NCBI GenBank assembly: GCA_030762175.1
Contig: CM060846.1
Location: 182,192,541-182,256,540 of the forward strand
DNA from: Metallyticus violacea
Taxonomy: Eukaryota; Arthropoda; Insecta; Mantodea; Metallyticidae
Reading direction: 5' to 3'
Length of the DNA stretch: 64,000 nucleotides
In this document: one piece after another, positions 1-60,720 of the stretch
How the letters are laid out: every line of letters begins with the position of its first letter
Numbering within the stretch: the first letter of the stretch is position 1
Notes under the pieces: model-generated
What the model was told of the DNA's origin: nothing
Seen by the model: the letters and a program-made list of their open reading frames with translations, nothing else
The model's database searches: none
Position numbers and translations under genes: made by a program

Positions 1-221
1 TTGATCGAGTGTTGGATTTAAATCTCCCGAAAAAAGTGTGTGTGATCAATTAATTACGTTGTAAAAAAATGGAGAGCCCTTCCGCCACTGCGTTGGCAGT
101 TCGCCACTGCTCGCTCCCCCCACCGCTCGCTTTCGCCGCCCGCCTCGCTTTGTTCGCCGCCCGCCTTGTGTCCCTCGCTTTGTTCGCCGCCCGCACAATG
201 CTTTTGCGTGAATTCGGTCTT

Positions 222-781
222 CAATGGGTGGTTTCTTATTCGTTTGTATATATTCTTTTTAACAAAAACTCTGTATTTTCTCACACAGGGTTAGAAAAGT
301 CAAAAACAATATGTGTGGGTTTTTCTTTACAGAGCCAACTAAAAGTTTCTTCTTTGTTCATGCGTGTTTATATTCGGGGGGCATCTTTTCTTCTTCAATG
401 TGTGGTTTCTTATTCGTTTGTATGTATTCTTTTTAACAAAAACTCTGTATTTTTCTCACACAGGGTTAGAAAGTCAAAAACAATATGTGGGTATTTTAAA
501 AGTTCTTTTTTCTTACTAACACGTTGGCTCTCTCTGTATTTCTAAAAATCTATTATTTTCACAAGGAAACAAAACCTGTATACGTTTGCTTTTGTTCTTT
601 TTCATGCGTGTTTTTAAAAAAGAATTCGGGGCATCTTTTCTTCTAGCAAAAACTCCCTCCGCACACATTTCTAAAACCGACCCAATGGGTGATTTCTTTT
701 CTTATAAATTCGATTGTATATATTCTTTTTAACAAAACTCTGTATTTTCTCACACAGTGACAGAAAAAAAGTCAAAAACAA
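222..781 (+). repeat. Three degenerate 95-base repeats with acceptor-like CTCACACAG
   Basis: Copies lie at 222-316, 396-489 and 684-781. Each contains ATTCTTTTTAACAAAA, then CTCTGTATTTT and CTCACACAG, and ends near GTCAAAAACAA. The pyrimidine-rich run before CACAG looks like a 3' splice site, but no downstream reading frame supports an exon. Mirror copies are at about 8422-8981, and element 2 has the same series at 9959-10518. Confidence 0.7.
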
Positions 782-849
782 GGGGATTCTTTTTTCTTCT
801 TCTAGCAAACTCCCACCGCGTACCCGATGGAAGATTAAAAAAATGAATA

Positions 850-1135
850 TACCTTCCCCCACCATTTGTACGACGATTGGCTGTAGGGTTATGCATGCGC
901 CGTAGAAACCTCCCATTCCACCTCAGTTCATTCCGTTGATTCTGTTACAGAGTCGAAAGTGCCACACAACCAATGAGAACGGGTGGTGTGTGAAACCTGT
1001 GACGACGTTGATGTTCCTCTGTTCACTTCTGCACCAAAGGCAAGCTGTATGCGTTCAGCGCCGGTTTCATGTATGCAGCAATGAAATTCCGGACACATTC
1101 CGCAACGATGTGCTTATGAGCGGTACATAAATAGC
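850..1135 (+). promoter_or_regulatory. Promoter-like segment in the arm (speculative)
   Basis: This segment is richer in GC than its surroundings. It contains CGATTGGCTG (an inverted CCAAT box) near 874, CCAATGAGAA near 970 and a TATA-like ACATAAATAG near 1125. The mirror copy is at 8068-8353 and a direct copy in element 2 at 10587-10872. The match is to generic words only; transcription is unproven. Confidence 0.2.
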
Positions 1136-1489
1136 ACACGTACTTCATAGCTTCTCACAGCTTTGCTACTTCGATATCTCTCCAACGAGAAAATTTACAG
1201 AATTACCCGAGCATTTGGTCTGAGAAAAGATTATGTGTGTTACTGGCCTTTTTATTCTAATTCAGACCAGTAAGAAGGTTCTGAAAAACCCCATATTCCC
1301 TTGGGTCACTCTGTATTTACAACGATTAATAGTCTCACAAAGTCAATCCGGTAACTTCCCAAAATTTTATCCACCTAGCAACGCATTCTTTTAAAATGCC
1401 GTAATTGATATTTTTGACCAAATGCTGTAGCCTTTTTTTTTTGTTCTTTTACAACAACCATTACAAATCTTTTAACATTGAGCAATTTT

Positions 1490-1630
1490 TCAACCGAACG
1501 ACTCGATCTTAGATTTCGGTATACCTGTGGCCTTGCGAAGTTTGTCTGCAGTGCCAAAACCAGCATAGTGTTCAGGATTGAAATAGATTTTCTTCAGTGC
1601 GTTCATAGTTGTTCCCTGATATTTTGTAAG
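1490..1630 (-). pseudogene. Integrase N-terminus-like remnant (Maverick/Polinton type?), copy a
   Basis: The minus strand encodes about 46 residues ending in TGA: KYQGTTMNALKKIYFNPEHY, followed by GFGTADKLRKATGIPKSKIE. From family knowledge, the block (L)KKIYF(N/D)P.H..(G/S)F.(T)..KL followed by a basic helix resembles the N-terminal region of Maverick/Polinton integrases. The downstream part of that family (the YTLHKP-like block and the catalytic core) is not recognisable. The match is by eye; a chance resemblance or another integrase family remains possible. Confidence 0.4.
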
Positions 1631-1963
1631 CAGCAACGCATTCTTTTAAAATGCCGTAATTGATATTTTTGACCAAATGATGTAGCTTTTTTTTTTTTGT
1701 TCTTTACAACTACCATTACAAATCTTTAAACATTGGAGCAGCAACGCATTCTTTTAAAATGCCGTAATTGATATTTTTGACCAAATGCTGTAGCCTTTTT
1801 TTTTTTTTTTTGTTCTTTACAACAACCGTTACAAATCTTTTAACATTGGAGCAGCAACGCATTCTTTTAAAATGCCGTAATTGATATTTTTGACCAAATG
1901 CTGTAGCCTTTTTTTTTGTTCTTTACAACAACCGTTACAAATCTTTTAACATTGAGCAATTTT

Positions 1964-2104
1964 TCAACCGAACGACTCGATCTTAGATTTCGGTATACCT
2001 GTGGCCTTGCGAAGTTTGTCTGCAGTGCCAAAACCAGCATAGTGTTCAGGATTGAAATAGATTTTCTTCAGTGCGTTCATAGTTGTTCCCTGATATTTTG
2101 TAAG
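1964..2104 (-). pseudogene. Integrase N-terminus-like remnant, copy b
   Basis: This is the same unit as at 1490-1630, with the same stop. Upstream on the minus strand lies an ATG that opens MTERGISSDENSSE but is out of frame with the KKIYFNPEHY block, so a frameshift near 2105 separates a possible start from the domain. Confidence 0.4.
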
Positions 2105-2838
2105 CTCTACTCTGATGAATTTTCATCACTAGAAATGCCACGTTCAGTCATATTTTCTCTTGGTCTGAGAAAAGATTATGTGTGTTACTGGCCTTTTTAT
2201 TCTAATTCAGACCAGAAACTTTCAAAATGACTTGTGGTATGACATTGAGTGCAAAAAAATCAGATCTCTTTTCAAAGCATTCACTGAAATTCATATTTGA
2301 GTATCGTAAAACAGCACTGTCAGTTAATTCACTGCAGGAATTGAACGCCATATGACTCTAGATCCGGTAGATGTTCCATCACTTAGCGGCTTGACTGATT
2401 GCTGAACTGGCACAGAATCATCCAGTGTGTAGGCGATGTGACCCTTTCTCAACAATACAGTAATCTTGGACTTTTGCTACCGGATCTATTAGCTAGACAA
2501 TTTCCATGTGGTAATTGGTTCCTATGGTTCCTACTGAAGACTTCATCCACTATTGGTATCTTGTGGTTCGATGAGAATAAGTGATACCTACCCACTCAGC
2601 AACAAGCCAAGCCACTGCGATGTCTTTGTATGTTGTCCATGCTGTCGCTAATTGCAATTCTTGTACCATTGCATGAATAATGTTCGCTTTGTATCGCGAA
2701 CAAAGCAATTTGTAATATGCCAACATCACATCCAAGGCCAGGTCTCCCTAGGACTATTATAGTTTATTATTATCACATCACATCATATTTGTGACAAAAA
2801 ACTGTGTTGTTTTCTTAATTTTTATCGCAAAAGTCACT

Positions 2839-2941
2839 CTATTTTGAGTTTAGGAGGCAAGTAGGTTACTACTACACCACTAGCACCAATTTACAGTTTT
2901 TGTAATCAGTGATGATATTATTATTTTCAATACTACAAAAA
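2839..2941 (-). repeat. SINE-derived segment in arm, first copy
   Basis: The stretch from CTATTTTGAGTTTAGGAGGC to ACTACAAAA also occurs at about 3340-3446. On the minus strand it carries TAGTGGTGTAGTAGTAACC, the A-box region of the tRNA-derived SINE seen intact at 50.0-50.3 kb. The mirror is at about 6260-6362. Confidence 0.6.
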
Positions 2942-3262
2942 CTTCACTTTAGACACAGAAAATAGTTTGTATAAATATATTTTTTATTTAAATTAAATAA
3001 AATGTGACGAGAGTATACATTTTTACCGTTATATCTTATCTTTATTAGCCTGCTGATAATGTTTTTGAGAAATTAACAACAAAACTGCAAACATTGTAAT
3101 TTAATATATTTTCTTGAACAAACTTAATTACAATAATCCTTTAGAATGTTTAATGTGTCAGGTAGTAATTAACAATTCGTGACATTAGATTTCGGAGTCA
3201 AAGCTGATTTAAAACAAACTAAAAACTGTTAATATCAAAATATTTTAAACAAAAACATACCT

Positions 3263-3446
3263 TCCGAAGGAAGCCATACTTAGGATTTTTACGCCCGAAA
3301 AAAAAAAGAAATCCATTCATCATGGCCGGGATCGAACCCTCTATTTTGAGTTTAGGAGGCAAGTAGGTTACTACTACACCACTAGCACCAATTTACAGTT
3401 TTTGTAATCAGTGATGATATTATTATTTTCAATACTACAAAACTTT
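3263..3446 (-). repeat. SINE-derived segment in arm, second copy
   Basis: On the minus strand it reads A-box TAGTGGTGTAGTAGTAACC, B-box GGTTCGATCCC, then GAAATCC...TAAGTATGGCTTCCTTCGG, matching the head and core of the SINE family at 27.3, 41.4 and 50.0 kb. It is decayed: the acceptor-stem bases differ from the family. The mirror is at 5755-5938. The sequence has no anticodon arm that would make it a working tRNA gene. Confidence 0.65.
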
Positions 3447-3785
3447 TTTCCTGCTTGTTTAAATGACAACGTATTAAAGAAAAATAAAACTAATTAAATG
3501 TAAAGGCATTGTGCATACACGCTAAAGCAGTGGATTTTATACTTTAGCATTCGTTTTTCTCTGAAGTTTGTTATTTGAACTCTCATCGTTCTCCCCGCCA
3601 ACTCTTCGTATGTGTCTTTTTAAAAATAATATTTTATTGTTCAAAGTAAATATTAACAACAGTTTCATTGCACACATTTAAATGGGAGTAAGTTTTCTGA
3701 AATATGTATGTTTTATGTTGTTTTCAGAAAAATCCACATTGCTTTAACTGTTTATTAATAGTCCGCATGACTGAACATTTTATAT

Positions 3786-4323
3786 ACAGAGGGTGTCAAA
3801 AATGTATGCACACTTTCACAGTAGATATCTATTTAATATATTTCAAAGTTGGACCGAAAAACAACAGTAATGTATAGTATGATGTTCTGTAAATAGAATG
3901 AAGCCAAGATTATCTCGTATGATATTCTGTAAACAGATGTGACTCGCATTACGTTGTTACAACAAAATGGAACCAAGATTATCGTTTGAACAGCGGAAAG
4001 TGGTTTTGGAAAACCGAGAATGTTGAAGTTCCAAGCCAATGGAGACGTGTGTACAGAACGGAACCGTCAACGCGATAACAATTGCACACATTCAAGACAA
4101 ATTTGAGATTCATGGTACCGTATGCGATGTTCACTAGGGCAGATCTGGAGACCTCGCACAGCAACAACCCCCGCGTCCTCGGCTATGATTTTGAACACCC
4201 ACCGCAGAAATCTACAAAGCAATGTGTACGTGAGACTGTTGCCTAACGGAACAGCGACCAATGCAGCTAGCCAGCGTATAAAAATAAAACGAAGCTCAAG
4301 CTCAATGAGGATCGCTGCAGGAT
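3786..4323 (+). pseudogene. Mariner-like element remnant (DUF4817-type HTH) in arm
   Basis: The remnant begins with an inverted-repeat-like end, ACAGAGGGTGTCAAAAATGT (3786). A broken transposase N-terminus follows: RLSFEQRKVVLE in one frame near 3975-4015, then KTENV and RTEPST-like residues in another, and GRPRTAT/RPRTATTPASSAM near 4155. From family knowledge, FEQRKVVL-(W)KTENV-EVQR(R)W-TEPPTR-GRPRT is the DUF4817 DNA-binding region of insect mariner-like transposases. The catalytic domain is absent and several frameshifts are present. Confidence 0.7.
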
Positions 4324-4564
4324 GAGTCGACATCGTATCGTATTTCTACCTTAGTATGACACTTGTAAAATATATCGCGTATATATATGTGATCTTAGGG
4401 TAAGATTTTTTCATCAAATCTAGAGAAATTTTCCCGCAGAAGTGTCATTATTTTAATGTTTCATAAAGAGATGTCAATAATTTTAATTTATTTGGTTTGC
4501 AAGGTAATTAATCACAGATCAAACTGCACAATAAAATATATGCAGTGATAGTGATTTAAAATGC

Positions 4565-4636
4565 ATATATTTTAAACGTGTGTTGTTGCTTATGTATGTT
4601 TTATAATTTTATGTTTCCATCTTCTGCAACTAAATA
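4565..4636. other. 72-base loop at the centre of element 1
   Basis: This is unpaired sequence between the two arms; pairing ends at ATGC (4561-4564) and resumes at GCAT (4637-4640). A nearly identical stretch lies at about 14300-14373 inside the 781-base loop of element 2, so the short loop looks like a shortened form of the longer one. Confidence 0.8.
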
Positions 4637-4877
4637 GCATTTTAAATCACTATCACTGCATATATTTTATTGTGCAGTTTGATCTGTGATTAATTACCTT
4701 GCAAACCAAATAAATTAAAATTATTGACATCTCTTTATGAAACATTAAAATAATGACACTTCTGCGGGAAAATTTCTCTAGATTTGATGAAAAAATCTTA
4801 CCCTAAGATCACATATATATACGCGATATATTTTACAAGTGTCATACTAAGGTAGAAATACGATACGATGTCGACTC

Positions 4878-5415
4878 ATCCTGCAGCGATCCTCATTGAG
4901 CTTGAGCTTCGTTTTATTTTTATACGCTGGCTAGCTGCATTGGTCGCTGTTCCGTTAGGCAACAGTCTCACGTACACATTGCTTTGTAGATTTCTGCGGT
5001 GGGTGTTCAAAATCATAGCCGAGGACGCGGGGGTTGTTGCTGTGCGAGGTCTCCAGATCTGCCCTAGTGAACATCGCATACGGTACCATGAATCTCAAAT
5101 TTGTCTTGAATGTGTGCAATTGTTATCGCGTTGACGGTTCCGTTCTGTACACACGTCTCCATTGGCTTGGAACTTCAACATTCTCGGTTTTCCAAAACCA
5201 CTTTCCGCTGTTCAAACGATAATCTTGGTTCCATTTTGTTGTAACAACGTAATGCGAGTCACATCTGTTTACAGAATATCATACGAGATAATCTTGGCTT
5301 CATTCTATTTACAGAACATCATACTATACATTACTGTTGTTTTTCGGTCCAACTTTGAAATATATTAAATAGATATCTACTGTGAAAGTGTGCATACATT
5401 TTTGACACCCTCTGT
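4878..5415 (-). pseudogene. Mariner-like remnant, right-arm mirror of element 1
   Basis: Exact reverse complement of 3786-4323, so it shares the same frameshifts and truncation. The inverted-repeat-like end lies at 5396-5415. Confidence 0.7.
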
Positions 5416-5754
5416 ATATAAAATGTTCAGTCATGCGGACTATTAATAAACAGTTAAAGCAATGTGGATTTTTCTGAAAACAACATAAAACATACATATT
5501 TCAGAAAACTTACTCCCATTTAAATGTGTGCAATGAAACTGTTGTTAATATTTACTTTGAACAATAAAATATTATTTTTAAAAAGACACATACGAAGAGT
5601 TGGCGGGGAGAACGATGAGAGTTCAAATAACAAACTTCAGAGAAAAACGAATGCTAAAGTATAAAATCCACTGCTTTAGCGTGTATGCACAATGCCTTTA
5701 CATTTAATTAGTTTTATTTTTCTTTAATACGTTGTCATTTAAACAAGCAGGAAA

Positions 5755-5938
5755 AAAGTTTTGTAGTATTGAAAATAATAATATCATCACTGATTACAAA
5801 AACTGTAAATTGGTGCTAGTGGTGTAGTAGTAACCTACTTGCCTCCTAAACTCAAAATAGAGGGTTCGATCCCGGCCATGATGAATGGATTTCTTTTTTT
5901 TTTCGGGCGTAAAAATCCTAAGTATGGCTTCCTTCGGA
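5755..5938 (+). repeat. SINE-derived segment, right-arm mirror
   Basis: Mirror of 3263-3446, with A-box near 5815-5835 and B-box GGTTCGATCCC near 5863. A second A-box-only copy is at 6260-6362. Confidence 0.65.
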
Positions 5939-7096
5939 AGGTATGTTTTTGTTTAAAATATTTTGATATTAACAGTTTTTAGTTTGTTTTAAATCAGCTT
6001 TGACTCCGAAATCTAATGTCACGAATTGTTAATTACTACCTGACACATTAAACATTCTAAAGGATTATTGTAATTAAGTTTGTTCAAGAAAATATATTAA
6101 ATTACAATGTTTGCAGTTTTGTTGTTAATTTCTCAAAAACATTATCAGCAGGCTAATAAAGATAAGATATAACGGTAAAAATGTATACTCTCGTCACATT
6201 TTATTTAATTTAAATAAAAAATATATTTATACAAACTATTTTCTGTGTCTAAAGTGAAGTTTTTGTAGTATTGAAAATAATAATATCATCACTGATTACA
6301 AAAACTGTAAATTGGTGCTAGTGGTGTAGTAGTAACCTACTTGCCTCCTAAACTCAAAATAGAGTGACTTTTGCGATAAAAATTAAGAAAACAACACAGT
6401 TTTTTGTCACAAATATGATGTGATGTGATAATAATAAACTATAATAGTCCTAGGGAGACCTGGCCTTGGATGTGATGTTGGCATATTACAAATTGCTTTG
6501 TTCGCGATACAAAGCGAACATTATTCATGCAATGGTACAAGAATTGCAATTAGCGACAGCATGGACAACATACAAAGACATCGCAGTGGCTTGGCTTGTT
6601 GCTGAGTGGGTAGGTATCACTTATTCTCATCGAACCACAAGATACCAATAGTGGATGAAGTCTTCAGTAGGAACCATAGGAACCAATTACCACATGGAAA
6701 TTGTCTAGCTAATAGATCCGGTAGCAAAAGTCCAAGATTACTGTATTGTTGAGAAAGGGTCACATCGCCTACACACTGGATGATTCTGTGCCAGTTCAGC
6801 AATCAGTCAAGCCGCTAAGTGATGGAACATCTACCGGATCTAGAGTCATATGGCGTTCAATTCCTGCAGTGAATTAACTGACAGTGCTGTTTTACGATAC
6901 TCAAATATGAATTTCAGTGAATGCTTTGAAAAGAGATCTGATTTTTTTGCACTCAATGTCATACCACAAGTCATTTTGAAAGTTTCTGGTCTGAATTAGA
7001 ATAAAAAGGCCAGTAACACACATAATCTTTTCTCAGACCAAGAGAAAATATGACTGAACGTGGCATTTCTAGTGATGAAAATTCATCAGAGTAGAG

Positions 7097-7237
7097 CTTA
7101 CAAAATATCAGGGAACAACTATGAACGCACTGAAGAAAATCTATTTCAATCCTGAACACTATGCTGGTTTTGGCACTGCAGACAAACTTCGCAAGGCCAC
7201 AGGTATACCGAAATCTAAGATCGAGTCGTTCGGTTGA
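7097..7237 (+). pseudogene. Integrase N-terminus-like remnant, mirror of copy b
   Basis: Exact mirror of 1964-2104 on the right arm; same reading frame and same terminal TGA. Confidence 0.4.
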
Positions 7238-7571
7238 AAAATTGCTCAATGTTAAAAGATTTGTAACGGTTGTTGTAAAGAACAAAAAAAAAGGCTACAG
7301 CATTTGGTCAAAAATATCAATTACGGCATTTTAAAAGAATGCGTTGCTGCTCCAATGTTAAAAGATTTGTAACGGTTGTTGTAAAGAACAAAAAAAAAAA
7401 AAAAAAGGCTACAGCATTTGGTCAAAAATATCAATTACGGCATTTTAAAAGAATGCGTTGCTGCTCCAATGTTTAAAGATTTGTAATGGTAGTTGTAAAG
7501 AACAAAAAAAAAAAAGCTACATCATTTGGTCAAAAATATCAATTACGGCATTTTAAAAGAATGCGTTGCTG

Positions 7572-7712
7572 CTTACAAAATATCAGGGAACAACTATGAA
7601 CGCACTGAAGAAAATCTATTTCAATCCTGAACACTATGCTGGTTTTGGCACTGCAGACAAACTTCGCAAGGCCACAGGTATACCGAAATCTAAGATCGAG
7701 TCGTTCGGTTGA
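7572..7712 (+). pseudogene. Integrase N-terminus-like remnant, mirror of copy a
   Basis: Mirror of 1490-1630. The array around it (7097-7825) mirrors 1378-2104 with one-base differences in A/T runs. Confidence 0.4.
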
Positions 7713-9271
7713 AAAATTGCTCAATGTTAAAAGATTTGTAATGGTTGTTGTAAAAGAACAAAAAAAAAAAGGCTACAGCATTTGGTCAAAAATATCAATT
7801 ACGGCATTTTAAAAGAATGCGTTGCTAGGTGGATAAAATTTTGGGAAGTTACCGGATTGACTTTGTGAGACTATTAATCGTTGTAAATACAGAGTGACCC
7901 AAGGGAATATGGGGTTTTTCAGAACCTTCTTACTGGTCTGAATTAGAATAAAAAGGCCAGTAACACACATAATCTTTTCTCAGACCAAATGCTCGGGTAA
8001 TTCTGTAAATTTTCTCGTTGGAGAGATATCGAAGTAGCAAAGCTGTGAGAAGCTATGAAGTACGTGTGCTATTTATGTACCGCTCATAAGCACATCGTTG
8101 CGGAATGTGTCCGGAATTTCATTGCTGCATACATGAAACCGGCGCTGAACGCATACAGCTTGCCTTTGGTGCAGAAGTGAACAGAGGAACATCAACGTCG
8201 TCACAGGTTTCACACACCACCCGTTCTCATTGGTTGTGTGGCACTTTCGACTCTGTAACAGAATCAACGGAATGAACTGAGGTGGAATGGGAGGTTTCTA
8301 CGGCGCATGCATAACCCTACAGCCAATCGTCGTACAAATGGTGGGGGAAGGTATATTCATTTTTTTAATCTTCCATCGGGTACGCGGTGGGAGTTTGCTA
8401 GAAGAAGAAAAAAGAATCCCCTTGTTTTTGACTTTTTTTCTGTCACTGTGTGAGAAAATACAGAGTTTTGTTAAAAAGAATATATACAATCGAATTTATA
8501 AGAAAAGAAATCACCCATTGGGTCGGTTTTAGAAATGTGTGCGGAGGGAGTTTTTGCTAGAAGAAAAGATGCCCCGAATTCTTTTTTAAAAACACGCATG
8601 AAAAAGAACAAAAGCAAACGTATACAGGTTTTGTTTCCTTGTGAAAATAATAGATTTTTAGAAATACAGAGAGAGCCAACGTGTTAGTAAGAAAAAAGAA
8701 CTTTTAAAATACCCACATATTGTTTTTGACTTTCTAACCCTGTGTGAGAAAAATACAGAGTTTTTGTTAAAAAGAATACATACAAACGAATAAGAAACCA
8801 CACATTGAAGAAGAAAAGATGCCCCCCGAATATAAACACGCATGAACAAAGAAGAAACTTTTAGTTGGCTCTGTAAAGAAAAACCCACACATATTGTTTT
8901 TGACTTTTCTAACCCTGTGTGAGAAAATACAGAGTTTTTGTTAAAAAGAATATATACAAACGAATAAGAAACCACCCATTGAAGACCGAATTCACGCAAA
9001 AGCATTGTGCGGGCGGCGAACAAAGCGAGGGACACAAGGCGGGCGGCGAACAAAGCGAGGCGGGCGGCGAAAGCGAGCGGTGGGGGGAGCGAGCAGTGGC
9101 GAACTGCCAACGCAGTGGCGGAAGGGCTCTCCATTTTTTTACAACGTAATTAATTGATCACACACACTTTTTTCGGGAGATTTAAATCCAACACTCGATC
9201 AAACAGAGATTTTCCTATCGCTTAATCAAACAGAAATTTTGATATCAATTCAAATTGAGATTTTGATATCA

Positions 9272-9410
9272 ACACCCCACCCCCACAACACCCACACCAC
9301 CACCACCACCACCCCCACCACCACCACCCCCACCACCACCACCACCACCTCCCACCACCACCACCTCCCACCACCACCACCACCACCTCCCACCCCCACC
9401 TCCCACCACT
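9272..9410. repeat. C-rich minisatellite (CCACCA/CCACCCCCA) near the right end of element 1
   Basis: About 139 bases are made almost only of C and A in CCACCA, CCTCCCA and CCACCCCCA units. The complementary strand is G-rich and could form G-quadruplexes. It is flanked by TTGATATC motifs on both sides. Confidence 0.9.
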
Positions 9411-9460
9411 TTTGATATCACCCCCCACCCCTTTTGATATCAATTTGATATAAAAATCAC

Positions 9461-9492
9461 GCGAGGAGGGATATATACTACTCCCTCCTCGC
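9461..9492. other. Junction of elements 1 and 2: inverted repeat with 12-base spacer
   Basis: GCGAGGAGGG (9461-9470) faces CCCTCCTCGC (9483-9492) across ATATATACTACT. Element 1 ends with its full terminus (ACTACT), whereas element 2 lacks the expected AGTAGTATATAT and begins directly at CCCTCC. No target duplication separates the two elements. Confidence 0.8.
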
Positions 9493-9509
9493 GTGATTTT
9501 TATATCAAA

Positions 9510-9703
9510 TTGATATCAAAAGGGGTGGGGGGTGATATCAAAAGTGGTGGGAGGTGGGGGTGGGAGGTGGGGGTGGTGGTGGTGGGAGGTGGTGGTGGTG
9601 GTGGTGGTGGTGGGGGTGGTGGTGGTGGGGGTGGTGGTGGTGGTGTGGGTGTTGTGGGGGTGGGGTGTTGATATCAAAATCTCAATTTGAATTGATATCA
9701 AAA
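9510..9703. promoter_or_regulatory. Subterminal TTGATATCAAAA motif cluster
   Basis: Motifs lie at 9510-9521 (TTGATATCAAAA), 9532-9543 (GTGATATCAAAA), 9668-9679 and 9692-9703 (both TTGATATCAAAA). Two pairs flank the minisatellite. Matching motifs lie on the other side of the junction (about 9238-9280 and 9410-9445), and two are kept in the short right end of element 2 (15957-15990). Subterminal repeated palindromes are often transposase-binding sites; binding here is inferred only. Confidence 0.45.
9544..9667. repeat. G-rich minisatellite (GGTGGT/GGTGGGGGT) near the left end of element 2
   Basis: This is the mirror-type array to 9272-9410 but about 13-15 bases shorter, with a different order of GGTGGT and GGTGGGGGT units. 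It therefore is not a simple copy of its neighbour. Confidence 0.9.
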
Positions 9704-11115
9704 TTTCTGTTTGATTAAGCGATAGGAAAATCTCTGTTTGATCGAGTGTTGGATTTAAATCTCCCGAAAAAAGTGTGTGTGATCAATTAATTACGTTGTA
9801 AAAAAATGGAGAGCCCTTCCGCCACTGCGTTGGCAGTTCGCCACTGCTCGCTCCCCCCACCGCTCGCTTTCGCCGCCCGCCTCGCTTTGTTCGCCGCCCG
9901 CCTTGTGTCCCTCGCTTTGTTCGCCGCCCGCACAATGCTTTTGCGTGAATTCGGTCTTCAATGGGTGGTTTCTTATTCGTTTGTATATATTCTTTTTAAC
10001 AAAAACTCTGTATTTTCTCACACAGGGTTAGAAAAGTCAAAAACAATATGTGTGGGTTTTTCTTTACAGAGCCAACTAAAAGTTTCTTCTTTGTTCATGC
10101 GTGTTTATATTCGGGGGGCATCTTTTCTTCTTCAATGTGTGGTTTCTTATTCGTTTGTATGTATTCTTTTTAACAAAAACTCTGTATTTTTCTCACACAG
10201 GGTTAGAAAGTCAAAAACAATATGTGGGTATTTTAAAAGTTCTTTTTTCTTACTAACACGTTGGCTCTCTCTGTATTTCTAAAAATCTATTATTTTCACA
10301 AGGAAACAAAACCTGTATACGTTTGCTTTTGTTCTTTTTCATGCGTGTTTTTAAAAAAGAATTCGGGGCATCTTTTCTTCTAGCAAAAACTCCCTCCGCA
10401 CACATTTCTAAAACCGACCCAATGGGTGATTTCTTTTCTTATAAATTCGATTGTATATATTCTTTTTAACAAAACTCTGTATTTTCTCACACAGTGACAG
10501 AAAAAAAGTCAAAAACAAGGGGATTCTTTTTTCTTCTTCTAGCAAACTCCCACCGCGTACCCGATGGAAGATTAAAAAAATGAATATACCTTCCCCCACC
10601 ATTTGTACGACGATTGGCTGTAGGGTTATGCATGCGCCGTAGAAACCTCCCATTCCACCTCAGTTCATTCCGTTGATTCTGTTACAGAGTCGAAAGTGCC
10701 ACACAACCAATGAGAACGGGTGGTGTGTGAAACCTGTGACGACGTTGATGTTCCTCTGTTCACTTCTGCACCAAAGGCAAGCTGTATGCGTTCAGCGCCG
10801 GTTTCATGTATGCAGCAATGAAATTCCGGACACATTCCGCAACGATGTGCTTATGAGCGGTACATAAATAGCACACGTACTTCATAGCTTCTCACAGCTT
10901 TGCTACTTCGATATCTCTCCAACGAGAAAATTTACAGAATTACCCGAGCATTTGGTCTGAGAAAAGATTATGTGTGTTACTGGCCTTTTTTATTCTAATT
11001 CAGACCAGTAAGAAGGTTCTGAAAAACCCCATATTCCCTTGGGTCACTCTGTATTTACAACGATTAATAGTCTCACAAAGTCAATCCGGTAACTTCCCAA
11101 AATTTTATCCACCTA

Positions 11116-11328
11116 GCAACGCATTCTTTTAAAATGCCGTAATTGATATTTTTGACCAAATGCTGTAGCCTTTTTTTTTTTTTGTTCTTTACAACAATCA
11201 TTACAAATCTTTTAACATTGGAGCAGCAACGCATTCTTTTAAAATGCCGTAATTGATATTTTTGACCAAATGCTGTAGCCTTTTTTTTTTGTTCTTTACA
11301 ACAACCATTACAAATCTTTTAACATTGA
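11116..11328. repeat. Tandem array in element 2 (two units)
   Basis: Only two of the GCAACGCATTCTTTT units are present (11116 and 11226), against four in each arm of element 1. The integrase-like 150-base units are absent. Confidence 0.8.
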
Positions 11329-11339
11329 GCAATTTTTCA

Positions 11340-11530
11340 ACTGAATTTATGTAAATTTATATAATTATGCATCTCAAATACATCCGATAAAGGGACCGTG
11401 AATCATAAATTATCATATCTACTTTTTCAGTGATCTTGAATCATTGTTTCTTGCACTTATAATCTTCACCAGGCATAGCTCATAGCCCAAATAAACCTAT
11501 CAGCATTAGTAAGTCTACCTTCTTTTTTAT
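11340..11530. other. Element-2-specific segment replacing the integrase-like unit
   Basis: After CAATTTTTCAAC the sequence leaves the element 1 arm for about 190 bases and returns at ATATTTTGTAAGCTCTAC. The inserted stretch has no reading frame or known motif that I recognise. Confidence 0.7.
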
Positions 11531-12179
11531 ATTTTGTAAGCTCTACTCTGATGAATTTTCATCACTAGAAATGCCACGTTCAGTCATATTTTCTCTTGGT
11601 CTGAGAAAAGATTATGTGTGTTACTGGCCTTTTTATTCTAATTCAGACCAGAAACTTTCAAAATGACTTGTGGTATGACATTGAGTGCAAAAAATCAGAT
11701 CTCTTTTCAAAGCATTCACTGAAATTCATTGGTTCCTATGGTTCCTACTGAAGACTTCATCCACTATTGGTATCTTGTGGTTCGATGAGAATAAGTGATA
11801 CCTACCCACTCAGCAACAAGCCAAGCCACTGCGATGTCTTTGTATGTTGTGATGATATTATTATTTTCAATACTACAAAACTTCACTTTAGACACAGAAA
11901 ATAGTTTGTATAAATATATTTTTTATTTAAATTAAATAAAATGTGACGAGAGTTTACATTTTTACCGTTATATCTTATCTTTATTAGCCTGCTGATAATG
12001 TTTTTGAGAAAATTAACAACCAAAAACTGCAAAACATTGTAATTTAATATATTTCTTGAACAAACTGAATTACAATAATCCTTTAGAAAGTTTAATGTGT
12101 CAGGTAGTAATTAACAATTCGTGACATTAGATTTCGGAGTCAAAGCTGATTTAAAACAAACTAAAAACTAAAAAACATA

Positions 12180-12363
12180 CCTTCCGAAGGAAGCCATACT
12201 TAGGATTTTTACGCCCGAAAAAAAAAAAAAAGAAATCCATTGATCATGCCCGGGATCGAACCCTCTATTTTGAGTTTAGGAGGCAAGTAGGTTACTACTA
12301 CACCACTAGCACCAATTTACAGTTTTTGTAATCAGTGATGATATTATTATTTTCAATACTACA
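12180..12363 (-). repeat. SINE-derived segment in left arm of element 2
   Basis: Same segment as 3263-3446, with B-box GGTTCGATCCCGGGC and an A-box on the minus strand and a longer A-run (A14). The second copy seen in element 1 is missing here. Confidence 0.65.
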
Positions 12364-12708
12364 AAACTTTTTTCCTGCTTGTTTAAATGACAACGTATTA
12401 AAGAAAAATAAAACTAATTAAATGTAAAGGCATTGTGCATACACGCTAAAGCAGTGGATTTTATACTTTAGCATTCGTTTTTCTCTGAAGTTTGTTATTT
12501 GAACTCTCATCGTTCTTCCCGCCAACTCTTCGTATGTGTCTTTTAAAAATAATATTTTATTGTTCAAAGTAAATATTAACAACAGTTTCATTGCACACAT
12601 TTAAATGGGAGTAAGTTTTCTGAAATATGTATGTTTTATGTTGTTTTCAGAAAAATCCACATTGCTTTAACTGTTTATTAATAGTCCGCATGACTGAACA
12701 TTTTATAT

Positions 12709-13303
12709 ACAGAGGGTGCCAAAAATGTATGCACACTTTCACAGTAGATATCTATTTAATATATTTCAAAGTTGGACCGAAAAACAACAGTAATGTATAG
12801 TATAATGTTCTGTAAATAGATGTGATTCACATTTTAATAGCGTTGCTACGTGACAGGTACATGAACAATGAACAAATGAAGCCAAGATTATCTCGTATGA
12901 TATTCTGTAAACAGATGTGACTCGCATTACGTTGTTACAACAAAATGGAACCAAGATTATCGTTTGAACAGTGGAAAGTGGTTTTGGAAAACCGAGAATG
13001 TTGAAGTTCCAAGGCAATGGAGACGTGTGTACAGAACGGAACCGTCAACGCGATATCAATTGTACACATTCAAGACAAATTTGAGATTCATGGTACCGTA
13101 TGCGATGTTCACAAAGGCAGATCTGGAGACCTCGCACAGCAACAAGCCCCGCGTCCTCGGCTATGATTTTGAACACCCACCGCAGAAATCTACAAAGCAA
13201 TGTGTACGTGAGACTGTTGCCTAACGGAACAGCGCCCAATGCAGCTAGCCAGCGTATAAAAATAAAACGAAGCTCAAGCTCAATGAGGATCGCTGCAGGA
13301 TGA
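12709..13303 (+). pseudogene. Mariner-like remnant (DUF4817-type) in left arm of element 2
   Basis: This is longer by about 57 bases than the copy in element 1 and less broken in the HTH region. One frame reads KWFWKTENVEVPRQWRRVYR followed by TEPSTR, the characteristic DUF4817 block, then shifts to GRPRTATSPASSA-like residues near 13125. The terminal repeat begins at 12709. The catalytic domain is absent. Confidence 0.75.
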
Positions 13304-13601
13304 GTCGACAAGTATTTGTACATTACTTAACATAATATTTTAATTTATGTAATTTCTTTCCTTATTTGCATCAGATTTATAACAGATTATTGCAACCAAA
13401 GTATATTTATTAATTTTTTTCATCAAATCTAGAGAAATTTTCCCGCAGAAGTGTCATTATTTTAATGTTTCTTTTGAGATTTACTTTGTCTACTACCATT
13501 TTTTCACAAAACTTTCTGGTGTTCTACGTGAACCTGCACTAAGTGTAAATTGTCATCTCAGAGTGAATATTTTTTGTGTTTTTATTAACTTTTCGAGTAA
13601 T

Positions 13602-14382
13602 TTTTCTTCTATATTATTCCAAAGTATTTCGGGGGCCAAGTTTATATATATACATACACATTATGTTCCAGAATCGCCGTATAATTTTCCGGAATTGGCC
13701 ATACAATAGCGCCATAAAAGGCTAGTTCAACAACCTTCAATACCTGACTACTGAGAACGTGTTAGATACTTTGTACATACACTCGTGTTTTCTTTGCAAA
13801 GTGTTGCCTTTGTTTCACTAACTAACGTTAAATTTAGAAATTCAGAATCACTAATAGATCAAATATATCGTAATTAATTTAGGTACCAAAGTAGAGAGTA
13901 AAATAAACGTACATTAATAACTGTGTAACATTGAATACTAGTTTTGTAATTTATTCGGTAATAGGAAAGTTAAAGAAAATTTTAAAAATACACCTAACGT
14001 GTAACTTTGTTCATCCCCAAAACCCCTGCATGTGCAACCAATATGTTATGCATGCCATGAAAGTTCATGAGGGTATAACAAAAGGCACGTCAATTCTGGA
14101 ACACAGTGTATATGTAGGTGTGTTTATATAACTTTTTCTCTCTCCTAATTCCATATCCCTAAATTTCTCTGTTTCTCAGTTTGTGTTTTTTTTCAATCGT
14201 TTTGCCTTTATTATGGTTTAATTTGATTTCTCATTCTAAATTAACATCTGTTGGTGTTTTAAAAGTTTTTCATGCTGCTGCTGCTGCTACTTTAAGTTCA
14301 TATATTTTAAACGTGTGTTGTTGTTTATGTATGTTTTATAATTTTATGTTTCCATCTTCTGCAAACTAAATAGCTAAATAGC
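13602..14382. other. 781-base loop of element 2
   Basis: This is unpaired sequence between arms that pair up to GAGTAAT (13595-13601) and ATTACTC (14383-14389). It includes a CTGCTGCTGCTGCT run near 14273 and, at about 14300-14373, the near-identical counterpart of the whole 72-base loop of element 1. Two short open frames (13931-14131, 14181-14369) have no recognisable domain and are unsupported as genes. Confidence 0.75.
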
Positions 14383-14680
14383 ATTACTCGAAAAGTTAAT
14401 AAAAACACAAAAAATATTCACTCTGAGATGACAATTTACACTTAGTGCAGGTTCACGTAGAACACCAGAAAGTTTTGTGAAAAAATGGTAGTAGACAAAG
14501 TAAATCTCAAAAGAAACATTAAAATAATGACACTTCTGCGGGAAAATTTCTCTAGATTTGATGAAAAAAATTAATAAATATACTTTGGTTGCAATAATCT
14601 GTTATAAATCTGATGCAAATAAGGAAAGAAATTACATAAATTAAAATATTATGTTAAGTAATGTACAAATACTTGTCGAC

Positions 14681-15275
14681 TCATCCTGCAGCGATCCTCA
14701 TTGAGCTTGAGCTTCGTTTTATTTTTATACGCTGGCTAGCTGCATTGGGCGCTGTTCCGTTAGGCAACAGTCTCACGTACACATTGCTTTGTAGATTTCT
14801 GCGGTGGGTGTTCAAAATCATAGCCGAGGACGCGGGGCTTGTTGCTGTGCGAGGTCTCCAGATCTGCCTTTGTGAACATCGCATACGGTACCATGAATCT
14901 CAAATTTGTCTTGAATGTGTACAATTGATATCGCGTTGACGGTTCCGTTCTGTACACACGTCTCCATTGCCTTGGAACTTCAACATTCTCGGTTTTCCAA
15001 AACCACTTTCCACTGTTCAAACGATAATCTTGGTTCCATTTTGTTGTAACAACGTAATGCGAGTCACATCTGTTTACAGAATATCATACGAGATAATCTT
15101 GGCTTCATTTGTTCATTGTTCATGTACCTGTCACGTAGCAACGCTATTAAAATGTGAATCACATCTATTTACAGAACATTATACTATACATTACTGTTGT
15201 TTTTCGGTCCAACTTTGAAATATATTAAATAGATATCTACTGTGAAAGTGTGCATACATTTTTGGCACCCTCTGT
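14681..15275 (-). pseudogene. Mariner-like remnant in right arm of element 2
   Basis: Reverse complement of 12709-13303 with the same frame breaks; the inverted-repeat-like end is at 15256-15275. Confidence 0.75.
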
Positions 15276-15620
15276 ATATAAAATGTTCAGTCATGCGGAC
15301 TATTAATAAACAGTTAAAGCAATGTGGATTTTTCTGAAAACAACATAAAACATACATATTTCAGAAAACTTACTCCCATTTAAATGTGTGCAATGAAACT
15401 GTTGTTAATATTTACTTTGAACAATAAAATATTATTTTTAAAAGACACATACGAAGAGTTGGCGGGAAGAACGATGAGAGTTCAAATAACAAACTTCAGA
15501 GAAAAACGAATGCTAAAGTATAAAATCCACTGCTTTAGCGTGTATGCACAATGCCTTTACATTTAATTAGTTTTATTTTTCTTTAATACGTTGTCATTTA
15601 AACAAGCAGGAAAAAAGTTT

Positions 15621-15804
15621 TGTAGTATTGAAAATAATAATATCATCACTGATTACAAAAACTGTAAATTGGTGCTAGTGGTGTAGTAGTAACCTACTTG
15701 CCTCCTAAACTCAAAATAGAGGGTTCGATCCCGGGCATGATCAATGGATTTCTTTTTTTTTTTTTTCGGGCGTAAAAATCCTAAGTATGGCTTCCTTCGG
15801 AAGG
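15621..15804 (+). repeat. SINE-derived segment in right arm of element 2
   Basis: Mirror of 12180-12363; A-box near 15675-15700 and B-box near 15723. Confidence 0.65.
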
Positions 15805-15956
15805 TATGTTTTTTAGTTTTTAGTTTGTTTTAAATCAGCTTTGACTCCGAAATCTAATGTCACGAATTGTTAATTACTACCTGACACATTAAACATTCTA
15901 AAGGATTATTGTAATTCAGTTTGTTCAAGAAATATATTAAATTACAATGTTTTGCA

Positions 15957-16025
15957 GATATCACCCCCCACCCCTTTTGATATCAATTTGATATAAAAAT
16001 CACGCGAGGAGGGATATATACTACT
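15957..16025. repeat. Right terminus of element 2 (69 bases)
   Basis: It matches the outermost bases of element 1 (about 9414-9482), including TTGATATCAATTTGATAT and CACGCGAGGAGGGATATATA, and ends CTACT. The following GGTATC (16026-16031) is a candidate 6-base target duplication; its partner would lie left of this window. Confidence 0.8.
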
Positions 16026-16984: not shown

Positions 16985-17210
16985 TCATTTTTTTTTGAAT
17001 GGTGTTTAACACCCGATTTCACTACTGAGGCACCATAGGCGGTGGACACTGATAATACATGAAATGAAATGATACATTGGAAAAAGATTTTTTTAAGGAA
17101 GGAAACGTTCCAGGCCTAAGTTTAGGGTGCCCCGCGGCATTTGCCAATTATGAGGACTGCGGAAAATCTGGAAAAAGCCTCAGTCAGGGAAAACGGTCCC
17201 TGATCTGGAT
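16985..17210 (-). repeat. SINE, Leu/Ser-tRNA-like family, 5' truncated
   Basis: Minus strand: CCCTGACTGAGGCTTTTTCC, GGCAAATGCCGCGGGG, CCTGGAACGTTTCCTTCC and GGTGTTAAACACCATTC, matching the body and tail of the SINEs at 44.9, 55.1 and 60.4 kb. The tRNA-like head is missing. Confidence 0.8.
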
Positions 17211-27302: not shown

Positions 27303-27602
27303 TGATTTGATTCGCTTTATTTAAGGACGCTCTTTAACATTTCAGGTCATCATCGTCCCATTCAATTCAGGGCGTGAAATGACCGACAAATTTTTGCTCA
27401 GAGGCCTCTTCTTTCAAGCTTCAGGTTCTTCATGGTGCCGTAAATGTACGACACGGACCCACGGCTTTACTTTCCTTCCGAAGGAAGCCATACTTAGGAC
27501 TTTTACGCCTGAAAAATCCATCAATCCTAGGCGGGTTTGAGCCCGCGAACTTGGGTTTAGAAGGCAACTATGGTTACCACTACACCACCAGAACCGACAC
27601 AC
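27303..27602 (-). repeat. SINE, GGTCCTG-head tRNA-derived family, with 9-bp target duplication
   Basis: Minus strand: tRNA-like head (GGTTCTGGTGGTGTAGTGGT, B-box GGGTTTGAGCCCGC), then AAGTATGGCTTCCTTCGG, the AAATGTACGACAC region reversed, and AATGGGACGATGATGACCTG near the 3' end. ACATACTAA flanks it at 27294-27302 and 27603-27611. A copy of this class is transcribed by RNA polymerase III and mobilised by LINE machinery (family knowledge). Confidence 0.9.
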
Positions 27603-34562: not shown

Positions 34563-34689
34563 AAGCAGCGCTGCACAAGGTGAGTGGATAACCAGTACTC
34601 TTTTTCAAATATTTCACCCTATATACACATATATTTTTTTCAATGTATATATACATTTCAATGTACATATATATTCCGCATACCCACCG

Positions 34690-35742
34690 CTTTGAAAGCG
34701 AAATTTCTATTATGCAACAAGATTTTCTGCATTTGTGAGTTCTGCGAGTGTGTGACTGAGGTGCAGCGTGCATTTTGGCATAAGTTTATTATTGAACCTC
34801 CAACGAGGAAGAACATTTATATGGGAATTAACAATTTGATGAAACAGGCTCTGTGTAAAGATAAAAGCCCAGGCCGACCTCTTGTATCGAAAGAGAACGT
34901 GGAGCGCATTCAAGCGTGCTTTGCATGTAGCCCAATGAAATCAAGTCGTAGAGCTAGTAAGGAACTTACACTACCGCAAACAACTGTCTGGCATGTATTG
35001 AGGCGCCGGTTAGTGTACAAACCGTACCATCTATAACTGGTACGGGCTCTTCACGAAAGCGATAAGGTAAAGCGTGCAGAATTTTGTGACCGTATGCTCC
35101 GAACATGAAAGATGAATTGTTTCTGCCTCGTATAATTTTAGTGATGAAGCTACTTTTCACCTAAGTGGGACAGTCAACAGGCACAACGTTCGGATATGGG
35201 GGCTACAAAATCCCCATGTAACATTGGAACATGTGTGGAAAAATCCTAAAGTTAATGTATTTTGCCCCCCATCGTTGACTAAGATTTATGGAAATTTCTT
35301 CTTTGACGAAAAGACGGTTACTGGAGGAAGATATCTTGGCACGATGCAAAACTGACTTGTTGTTCAAATGAATGAAGATTCAGGATATTACATTTTCCAG
35401 TAAAACGGGGATCCACCTCATTGGCATCGGAAATTTCCACGTTTCCTGAATGAATGTCTGCCTCAACGATGAATGGGTCGCATGGGGAAGGAGGACTTGG
35501 CACTTTTGTTCTGACCATCGAGATCTCCTGATCTCACACCCTGCGATTTCTACTTGCGGGGCTTCGTGAAAGATATAGTTTACGTAGCACCTCTTCCCAC
35601 TAATTTGAATGGCCTAAGAAACCGTATCACAGCTGCGGTGATCTCAGTGACGTAAGACATTCTTCATCGAGTGTGGGATGAATTCAGCTACCTTCTAGAT
35701 ATTATCCGTGAAGCCGTAGGGGGGCATATTAAAAATTTGTAA
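34690..35742 (+). pseudogene. Mariner-like transposase, nearly full length but broken
   Basis: DNA-binding part: CVTEVQRAFWHKFIIEPPTR, SPGRPLVSKENVERIQACF and VWHVLRRRL (34740-35020). An in-frame TAA follows PYHL at 35034, where the sequence continues LVRALHESDKVKRAEFCDRM. The catalytic region follows: FLPRIIFSDEATFHLSG near 35118, HNVRIWG, NPKVNVFC, YGNFFFDEKTVTGGRYLG, DPPHWHRKFPRFLNECLP, SRSPDLTPCDFYLRGFVKD (35522-35580) and VGGHIKNL at the end (35742). The order and the SPDLTPCDF motif identify a mariner-family transposase; several stops and frame changes make it inactive. Confidence 0.8.
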
Positions 35743-41411: not shown

Positions 41412-41731
41412 CAGGTTTTTGTTTTTTTTGATTGATTGATTGATTGATTGATTTATGGACGCTCTTTAACATCTCAGGCCATCAGCGTCCCATTCAACTC
41501 AGGGCGTGAAACGGCCGACACATTTTGCTCAGGGGCCTCTCTTTCAGGCTTGAGGTTCTTTTTCGTGCCGTAAATGTACGACACGGGACCCACTGCTTTA
41601 CTTCCCTTCCGAAAGAATCCATACTTGGGATTTTTACCACCGAAAAAATCCATCGGTCCTGGCCGGGTTCGAACCCGCGTTCTTGAGTGTAGGAGGAAAG
41701 TATGGTAACCACTACACCACTAGGACCGACA
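41412..41731 (-). repeat. SINE, GGTCCTG-head family, with 9-bp target duplication
   Basis: Minus strand: head GGTCCTAGTGGTGTAGTGGT, B-box GGGTTCGAACCCGGCC, GGCCAGGACC closing the acceptor stem, body, 3' end TAAATCAATCAATCAATCAA (tetranucleotide tail) and A-run. TATAAATAG flanks it at 41403-41411 and 41732-41740. Confidence 0.9.
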
Positions 41732-45588: not shown

Positions 45589-45926
45589 TTAACACGACGA
45601 CAGTATTGATCCTTCTCTGTCTGGCTGTAGAGGACGTTCGATATGTGTGTGGCGGAAGTGGAGGGGAGGAGTATGTAGGGGAGGTAGTTGCTTGTTTTTA
45701 AGAACCGGTTTCCAAGTGCTACTTAGTTGATAACCGCCATCCCTATTAAAGTTGATAGGGTGTTGTTGTATTTCCAATGCTTCCCTCCTGGCTAGATTGA
45801 AAAAGCCTTGAATTTTTGCAACCACTTCTGTTTTGTTAAAGCATATACCATGGCATTCCTTTATTGCATGTTCTGCTACTGCGGAACGTTCGGGCTGATT
45901 AAGGCGCAAATGTCGTTGATGTTCTT
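45589..45926 (-). pseudogene. Penelope GIY-YIG nuclease, C-terminal part (frameshifted)
   Basis: Continues in another frame: RLNQPERSAVAEHAIKECHG, then ARREALEIQQHPINFNRDGG. The AVAEH and (R)EALEI-x-x-(H)P-x-N-x-N-R-D-G blocks are the usual end of Penelope GIY-YIG domains. A one-base-type shift near 45910-45927 disconnects it from KVYIGMTGRS. Confidence 0.85.
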
Positions 45927-46976
45927 CTAATTGTTTTTAATCGATCTTCCGGTCATGCCTATGTAAACTTTGCCACATTCACATGGTATTTTATAAATTC
46001 CCGTGGTGTCAAGGGGATGCCTAGGATCTTTTGCATTGTTTAACATTTGTCCTAATTTTGTAGTTGGTGTGAAGATCGATAGTATGCCTTTTCTCTTTAA
46101 TAAGCGTGCTATACGTACAGTAACATCTTCTATGTACGTTAGAACAGCTTTAGGTTTCTTGTTCGAATAGGTGTTAGATGCTGCAGTTTTCTTAGGGCGA
46201 GTGGCTCTGTCAATATCTTTGTTGCTGTATCCGTTGGGTTTGAAAACATCGCGGAGATGATTTAATTCTTGCTTAAGATATTCAGGTTCCGTGATGTTTT
46301 TTGCTCTGTGCACTAAAGTCTTGATTACAGTTCTTTTTTGTGCAGGATGATGATTCGATCTGGCATTGAGATATCTTTCCGTATGTGTGCTTTTTCTATA
46401 GACTTGATGACCAAGAGCTCCTGATGATTTTCTTCGAACTAAGACGTCTAAAAAGGGAAGCGTGTCATTACTTTCCTTTTCCATAGTAAATTTAATTTTT
46501 TCATGGAGACTATTTAGATGTTCCAAGAAGAGCCGTAGTTTATGATTTCCATGTGGCCAAATTACAAAGGTGTCGTCCACGTATCTTAACCAGAGTGAAG
46601 GTTTGTATACAGCAGTGTCTAGAGCTTTCTTTTCGAAGTGTTGCATAAAGAAGTTTGCTATTACAGGGCTTAGTGGACTTCCCATTGCTACTCCTTCTTT
46701 CTGTTGGTAGAATTTGGTTCTCCACAGAAAATAACTGGAAGTTAGGACGTGTTCAAATAATGTGATCTCTTCTGCTTTAAAGTGGACTTGTAGTAGTTCC
46801 AAGGTGTCTTTAATGGGTACATTTGTGTATAGAGATTCTACATCAAAACTCACCAGAATGTCATTTGGCTGTAAGTTGATCCTATCGATGATTTCCACAA
46901 AGTATTTCGAGTTCTTAATGTGGTGATCCGAGTGAGCTATTAACGGACGTAACAAGGATGCCAAGTAATGCGCCAA
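45927..46976 (-). pseudogene. Penelope reverse transcriptase with start of GIY-YIG domain
   Basis: An open stretch of 349 codons. RT motifs: LVSFDVESLYTNVP (catalytic Asp in FDVE, about residue 45), KEGVAMGSPLSPVIANFFMQ (about 93-112), LRYVDDTFVIW (catalytic YVDD, about 130) and LPFLDVLVRR (about 168). C-terminal GIYKIPCECGKVYIGMTGRS starts the GIY-YIG nuclease. Function in an intact element: target-primed reverse transcription of its own RNA. A frameshift near 47010 separates it from RT motif 1, and a frameshift near 45920 from the rest of the nuclease, so the element is not functional as it stands. Confidence 0.92.
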
Positions 46977-47072
46977 TTTGTATGTTGGTGAACCGATTGT
47001 GTTGACAATAGCCTTAAGGGAACACCCGGTTTGTGCACCTTCGGGAGTCCATACAGTCTAGGGGGTAGACTA

Positions 47073-47840
47073 TTAGTTGATCGTAGCTTTTTTATTTCCT
47101 CGGGTTTCCACTTGGTGTTTTTTTAGAAGAACGGCAGTTTTTCTTTCCACACTTGTAGTAGGATCCTTTGGTACTATTCTGTAGGTATCTGGTGTTAATA
47201 AGGAACCCATTTTTTCTTCATACTCGGATGTGTCCATCACTACCGTGGCATTGCCCTTATCAGCTGGCAGGATGGTGATATTGTCATTCTCACGTAGGTT
47301 TTTGAGTTGCGCTCTTTCCTTCCTATTAAGATTATACTTAGGAGGCTTTGCTTTCTTTAAAATTCTGCATGCTTCTGAGCGTACCTCTTCTGCATCAGCT
47401 GTTGGCACATCACAAATAGCGTTTTCCACTTGCGTAATGATGGTTTCCGTAGGAATCTTCTTGGGCACTAAGGCAAAGTTGTTTCCTTTAACTAGAAGTG
47501 AAACTGAATCTGGAGATAGCTGGTGGCTAGATAAATTCACAATTACCTTGTTGGGGTCCAAGTTTTGACTAGTTTCTTTTTGATGTAGCTGGTCGAATTT
47601 TTTCTTCTGGCGTTCTGTTGCTATGAAGCCATGATGTTCAGCACAGTTGAATGTAATAGAATCTATCTTGTTCCACATGTGTATTGATATTGACGATGCT
47701 AAGTGTATATGTAGCTTTAGAAGTTCCATGGAGACAGAGGCAAGTTGAGATCTCGTCGAATGTATCTGTTCTCGAGTAAGTGCTCGTCCGGCTCTATTAT
47801 AAATCCTATTTGCAACAGTGCTCTTTATGTTGTTACGCAT
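47073..47840 (-). pseudogene. Penelope polyprotein, N-terminal region
   Basis: This is an open stretch of 255 codons upstream of the reverse transcriptase in the same element. It includes LSPDSVSLLVKGNNFALVPK, ENAICDVP and LRENDNITILPADKGNATVV (about residues 195-215); the ADKG block is conserved ahead of the RT core in Penelope elements. The true frame leaves this one near 47120 at an A7 run (T7 on plus), where the adjoining frame continues PPRLYGLPKVHKPGVPLR (47010-47065), RT motif 1. Confidence 0.85.
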
Positions 47841-47927
47841 CTGTAGGTATTTAGGTATACAATTGTAGTCCCTGCATCGGCTTAAAAAGGCTAAACTTTA
47901 AAGTAACATAAAAAGTAAACTTGAAAG

Positions 47928-59792: not shown

Positions 59793-59830
59793 GGTGGATA
59801 ATTTTTTATTTATTTTATATAATTTTAACA

Positions 59831-60711: not shown

Positions 60712-60720
60712 TTGCTGTAC

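Follow-up and report, generated by a model that had tools for sequence, protein, structure and literature searches.

Two end-to-end foldback units in Metallyticus violacea with long arms probably kept identical by arm-to-arm copying

Organisation of the locus

The window analysed here, a continuous stretch of 64,000 nucleotides from Metallyticus violacea, carries mirrored sequence that stretches from left of the window to position 16025, in large part also across 9203-16025, and self-comparison places three mirror centres at 4600.5, 9476.5 and about 13992 (Table 1). This sequence consists of two abutting foldback units, with the arms of unit 1 complete as far as the window reaches. A sequence-only reading had described a 9.7-kb element at this locus. 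Its mirrored part stands, but as a self-standing element it does not, since it makes up the left portion of a ~16.3-kb double palindrome.

In a global alignment, 1-4563 and the reverse complement of 4638-9202 show no substitutions and two one-base gaps, each in a T run (close to 1433 and to 1796), and self-BLAST recovers the same arm pair with an E value of 0.0. By these two comparisons, the palindrome reported from the letters alone, with mirror sums of 9201-9203, no substitutions and about two homopolymer indels, is real, and its arms lie at 1-4564 and 4637-9202. The pair 4564/4637 adds one base pair beyond the aligned arms, and as 4565 and 4636 are unpaired, stem closure leaves a loop of 72 bases, the length first given for it. 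Position 1 pairs with 9202, meaning that unit 1 continues to the left of the window, and by symmetry with the right end at 9482, the ~280 outermost bases of its left arm fall there. In the contrast region at 16026-64000 (48 kb), exact inverted 24-mers are confined to one anti-diagonal.

Around centre 2, 7718-9482 is mirrored by 9483-11225. The innermost stem is exact over 88 bp, flanking the 12-base ATATATACTACT, and a 94-base piece from this centre folds in line with that stem. Here, the intact end of unit 1 is joined to the left end of unit 2, which lacks the 12 bases. Unit 2 spans 9483-16025, and its inner arms are 99.94% identical, as 12027-13601 mirrors 14383-15957 around centre 3 with one substitution in 1,575 positions. 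The 781-base spacer between them holds unit 1's loop sequence in unchanged orientation, with one substitution and one gap over 75 aligned bases, and the right edge of the loop is also common to the two units. At 15957, the right arm switches to a terminal segment of 69 bases that matches 9414-9482 exactly and whose last base is 16025. The deletion behind this switch amounts to 3.3 kb in unit 1 coordinates (6117-9413); measured on the left arm of unit 2 itself, it is ~2.5 kb.

The mirror structure of unit 1 is not a chance pattern, nor is it likely to be an artefact. A turned-back read, arising from a missed adapter or an amplification chimera and built into the contig, would explain why the unit 1 arms differ by homopolymer length only, as raw long-read errors do; moreover, the palindrome reaches the edge of the window and is judged here on assembled sequence. 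Such an origin is nevertheless very improbable, as an asymmetric 72-base loop exists and recurs in unit 2, unit 2 has mirrored indels of its own, the mirroring runs around three different centres, and the right end is asymmetric and continues into other DNA.

Table 1 Features of the double palindrome and its arms (positions are those of the window)
Feature	Positions	Strand	Basis or remark
Unit 1 left arm, outermost ~280 bases outside the window	1-4564	+	Arm alignment, stem closure
Loop of centre 1, 72 bases	4565-4636	.	4564-4638 versus 14299-14374: 1 substitution, 1 gap
Unit 1 right arm including terminus	4637-9482	-	Mirroring within the unit stops at 9202 because of the window start
Centre 2, GAGGAGGG / 12-base ATATATACTACT / CCCTCCTC	9463-9490	.	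Exact 88-bp stem, fold
Unit 2 left arm	9483-13601	+	Self-comparison, arm alignments
Unit 2 spacer (centre 3), with the unit 1 loop sequence at 14299-14374	13602-14382	.	Self-comparison, block comparison
Unit 2 right arm, inner part	14383-15957	-	1 substitution in 1,575 versus 12027-13601
Unit 2 right terminus, ending ACTACT and followed by GGTATC	15957-16025	+	69 bases identical to 9414-9482, after the outer-arm deletion
Internal repeats of the unit 1 arm	1377-2105	.	Self-comparison; mirrored at 7096-7826
Partial SINE-like passenger	3255-3389	+	Mirrored at 5812-5946, 12175-12313 and 15671-15809
(CAC)n-rich subterminal array	9273-9409	.	Mirrored at 9544-9667
37-codon helix-turn-helix-like peptide piece, stop soon after	1496-1606	-	Weak homeodomain-like match

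Contents of the arms

The arms carry repeats of their own and dead passengers, in agreement with what had been read from the letters. A tandem repeat of ~110 bp is present in 3.0 copies in unit 1 (1629-1958) and in 2.0 copies in unit 2 (11115-11331), and the unit 1 arm additionally contains a 255-bp direct repeat (1377-1631 and 1853-2105). Each of the four arms holds a SINE-like piece at the mirrored position; it matches three repeats elsewhere in the window (27311-27598, 41448-41730 and 50038-50328) at 76-79%; this mirrored partial repeat may be read as a SINE passenger. The CAC-rich subterminal arrays carry TTGATATCAA motifs. The helix-turn-helix-like peptide piece has identical copies at 1970-2080 (-), 7121-7231 (+) and 7596-7706 (+), so that each arm of unit 1 has a pair of them; unit 2 has none.

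No transposase or integrase was recognised in the libraries searched. Pfam yielded nothing above cut-off in ten of the ORF pieces of the arms (further pieces exist) or in six frames of 1-4638 with X at stops, a coverage that leaves out 9203-9482 and the unit 2 spacer at 13602-14382. Weak Pfam matches below the curated cut-offs (RapH_N, AppA_SCHIC, IL4, HCMV_UL139 and Relaxase_M) were taken as chance. Rfam at gathering thresholds and a tRNA search found nothing in the 64-kb window, and a mariner-like relic suspected by eye at 3897-4332 was left unconfirmed, the best tblastn match nearby having an E value of 0.95. The peptide piece beginning MNALKKIYFN may resemble the N-termini of Polinton integrases. 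It gave no homologue in a protein search or in viral contigs, NCBIfam and phages, and only weak homeodomain-like matches in the PDB. Elsewhere in the window, a reverse transcriptase is encoded at 45927-47057, with relatives, among the best 120 of 1,316 matches, in a lizard, ants, odonates, a termite, beetles, bees and a cockroach.

Substitution patterns within and between the units

Perfect 4.6-kb arms separated by 72 bases are expected to be unstable on a chromosome. Having two units side by side provides a direct test of how the arms stay identical, and the patterns found favour copying between arms over youth. Confident comparison of all four arms, here called A1 and A2 in unit 1 and B1 and B2 in unit 2, is confined to two inner homologous blocks of 788 and 436 sites. 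Across these 1,224 sites, A1 and A2 differ at none and B1 and B2 at one, against 16 differences between A1 and B1 and 15 between A2 and B2. All but one of the 16 substitutions between the units are common to both arms of each unit, the remaining one being peculiar to B1. An automatic alignment of the four arms gives the same picture, with 1,336 invariant columns, 97 in which A1 equals A2 and differs from a common state in B1 and B2, one in which B1 stands alone, and none that splits A1 from A2 or pairs one A arm with one B arm. Likewise, its 186 gapped columns form 12 runs, every one of them common to both arms of a unit. Some of the 97 columns and the last six of these runs fall in inner stretches (about 4333-4405 and 4463-4563 versus 13311-13414 and 13472-13601) for which homology between the units is improbable, so the block counts and the first six indel runs (1, 1, 22, 4, 1 and 55 bases) deserve more trust. 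The four-arm alignment does not include the two T-run indels of unit 1.

Arms evolving separately from a palindromic ancestor would give the reverse of this pattern. As the loop sequence and the loop edge are common to both units, their common ancestor was most likely already palindromic, with the arms homogenised later. The site patterns, drawn from two units without an outgroup, thus speak for arm-to-arm homogenisation over two fresh formations. The sequence-only reading had left the choice between very recent formation and arm-to-arm conversion; the substitutions and indels that the arms share within their own unit narrow it, by way of unit 2, towards homogenisation of one arm by the other.

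Part of the evidence points the other way. Over their innermost 100-130 bp, the arms of one unit are unrelated to those of the other, although this part is mirrored within each unit; a new palindrome arising close to the same loop would fit this as well. In addition, the left arm of unit 2 has not been used to restore the long stretch deleted from the right one, which counts against homogenisation. It could be proposed that each palindrome is recent and formed anew from a one-armed copy by snap-back or template switching, so that arm identity reflects youth. The perfect arms of unit 1 and the unlike but internally mirrored inner ends agree with this proposal, as does centre 2, which resembles self-priming of a complete 3' end, with ACTACT in the loop and a partner lacking 12 bases. 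However, the same loop sequence, right edge and orientation in both units would be an unlikely coincidence for independent turns, making recent formation an unlikely, if not negligible, explanation.

Arm-to-arm homogenisation may also have reached across centre 2. Divergence between A1 and B1 is 1 in 1,483 in the outer block (measured on the left arm of unit 1, which is identical to the right) and 17 in 1,399 in the inner blocks at 2909-4332 (9 in 963 plus 8 in 436; Fisher p 5e-5, with four short blocks of 2/120, 0/201, 0/123 and 0/57 excluded from the test). Arms of different units are therefore most alike near the axis of centre 2 and less so further in, and the (CAC)n array across this centre differs by one substitution and indels of 10 and 3 bases. 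Such a gradient would be as expected from conversion between adjacent inverted arms, although selection on the termini or recombination between copies could likewise keep the outer 1.5 kb similar.

Termini and a possible link to Polinton/Maverick elements

Positions 9482 and 16025 are the last common bases before the copies run into different sequence. Both ends read ACTACT and are fixed by this divergence, independently of any motif, and the six bases to the right of 16025 are GGTATC. Three published Polinton/Maverick end motifs were compared, namely (AGT)2//(ACT)2, (AG)3//(CT)3 and (AC)3A//T(GT)3, and the right ends of both units carry the first, which is the commonest in vertebrate Mavericks (PMC8097293). 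The chance of a fixed position fitting one of the three is ~7e-4 in this window, a figure to be read as a lead rather than a test because the motif was compared after the end had been seen. The terminal 18-mer of the element occurs in 0 viral contigs; its presence in four bacterial contigs was taken as chance, as ~7 are expected at the database size by estimate.

The termini also bear on whether the locus could be an ordinary inverted segmental duplication of host sequence rather than a mobile element. In favour of such a duplication, no mobility gene turned up in the regions searched, and no target site duplication is visible within the window, which excludes the left end. Still, two structurally equivalent units share one terminus that ends abruptly at the same base beside different neighbours (9482 and 16025), and the terminal motif is one published for a transposon superfamily, so that a plain duplication is improbable.

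A Polinton origin is a lead that the end sequence suggests but does not prove. Pfam found none of the Polinton core genes (polymerase B, integrase, ATPase and capsid) in 1-4638 or in the ten arm pieces, and the element would thus be at most a non-autonomous derivative. The arms, at about 4.8 kb, are also longer than the terminal inverted repeats given for Mavericks (46-1,447 bp; PMC8097293), which are themselves long and share the (AGT)2//(ACT)2 ends; the polymerase, capsid, ATPase and integrase of those elements went undetected here in the regions searched. If the insertion is of Polinton type, AGTAGTATATATCCC would be expected at about -280, with GGTATC before it.

Comparison with known foldback elements

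The kind of element is already known, as the locus looks like an extreme case of a foldback element: long inverted arms make up most of it, and the arms contain internal tandem repeats. A close anatomical precedent is Galileo of the P superfamily. Copy 112 of Drosophila willistoni measures 9,021 bp, with arms of 4,246 and 4,680 bp that carry ~140-bp tandem repeats and a passenger transposable element, and is described there as having no transposase segment (PMC4168063). The arm pair had been called unusual from the letters alone, which this precedent of 4.2/4.7 kb arms with tandem repeats and passengers makes only partly right. In D. mojavensis, the two arms of any one Galileo copy are stated in general to be 98-100% identical, while arm identity is 95.2% in the longest-armed copy (1,260/1,241 bp). 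It has also been proposed there that break repair in which one arm is copied from its partner is a source of arm extension (PMC3573991).

The present locus differs from Galileo in its perfect 4.56-kb arms, its 72-base loop and the joining of two units end to end. P-superfamily ends probably differ from the AGTAGT... terminus found here, and the likeness described is one of anatomy. No transposase match was found in the regions searched, and foldback copies often lack a transposase. Long modular arms with internal tandem repeats are also described for Tetris, with arms of up to 1,735 bp and copies reported to be without coding capacity (PMC4079207), and for Tm1, of which one group encodes a transposase and for which mean arm identity is 93.15%, with identical arms in 5 of 61 elements (PMC3169594). 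Outside mobile elements, paired substitutions keep the arms of inverted repeats identical in nematomorph mitochondrial genes, and inverted repeats that are actively maintained in other systems are cited alongside (PMC6649704); the nematomorph repeats reach 284 bp and lie in mitochondrial coding genes, not in a mobile element. Relative to the precedents above, the perfection of arms this long, the double palindrome, the clear homogenisation pattern and the possible Polinton link are new. Among the papers listed in searches of open-licence full texts, none was on a foldback Polinton.

Proposed mechanism

Taken at a probability of roughly 0.7, the locus represents a pair of non-autonomous foldback DNA transposons, abutting at their ends, whose arms are kept identical by arm-to-arm copying. 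Each unit would have long inverted arms on either side of a loop or spacer, without a recognised transposase gene, and would likely be moved by enzymes of a Polinton/Maverick-type parent. Passengers and indels arising in one arm would thereby reach its partner as well. The copying could be chromosomal gene conversion between inverted arms lying next to each other, or it could take place while a hairpin form is repaired or replicated. Pairing and conversion of chromosomal arms 72 bases apart would need the least machinery to produce the site patterns.

More tentatively, the element may be a foldback Polinton/Maverick derivative, in which a protein-primed linear element has given rise to a defective snap-back genome. 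A strand copying one end would turn back, leaving the 72-base loop, and the resulting self-complementary molecule, still bearing (AGT)2 ends, could be copied and integrated by a helper. If its complete 3' end then primed on itself, an end-to-end double palindrome would arise with the complete end in the 12-base loop of centre 2, and copying through the hairpin would maintain arm identity. Self-complementary, defective snapback genomes with a loop in an asymmetric form are known from AAV (PMC8235507), a parvovirus with another replication mode that serves as an analogy for mechanism only. Should the ends indeed mark a Polinton derivative, foldback elements would be linked to a protein-primed, virus-like element, and the locus would be a chromosomal counterpart of snap-back defective genomes. 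The snap-back and self-priming route alone would leave the inner differences between unit 1 and unit 2 unexplained, and a later exchange would still be needed.

Small structures within the foldback units

Within one mirror-image arm of the left foldback unit (unit 1), self-comparison of the window revealed an exact 56-bp repeat (1215-1270 and 2160-2215), which by eye appears to be a small foldback. Its ends are mutually inverted on visual inspection (GGTCTGA...TCAGACC), and the other arm carries the mirrored repeat. In the spacer of the right foldback unit (unit 2), the stretch 13664-14103, for which no counterpart was found in unit 1, is perhaps a separate small insertion; its borders, TGTTCCAGAATCG and CAATTCTGGAACA, look by eye like near-inverted ends.

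Other transposable elements

By eye, the non-LTR retrotransposon has endonuclease and reverse transcriptase ORFs along with gag-like and RNase H-like ones, and self-comparison placed a repeat inside it (60417-60707) also at 44896, 55119 and 16988-17200. We read the reverse-transcriptase element as Penelope-like; a protein search with its 376-aa ORF piece alone gave 61% identity to the top relative among the matches listed. The ORF at 34584-35036 resembles, by eye, the N-terminal part of a mariner-type transposase.

Transposable-element features in the window
Feature	Position	Strand	Remark
Non-LTR retrotransposon	58452-63620	+	ORFs recognised by eye
Reverse-transcriptase element	45589-47897	-	Three ORF pieces
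ORF, mariner-type transposase-like	34584-35036	+	By eye
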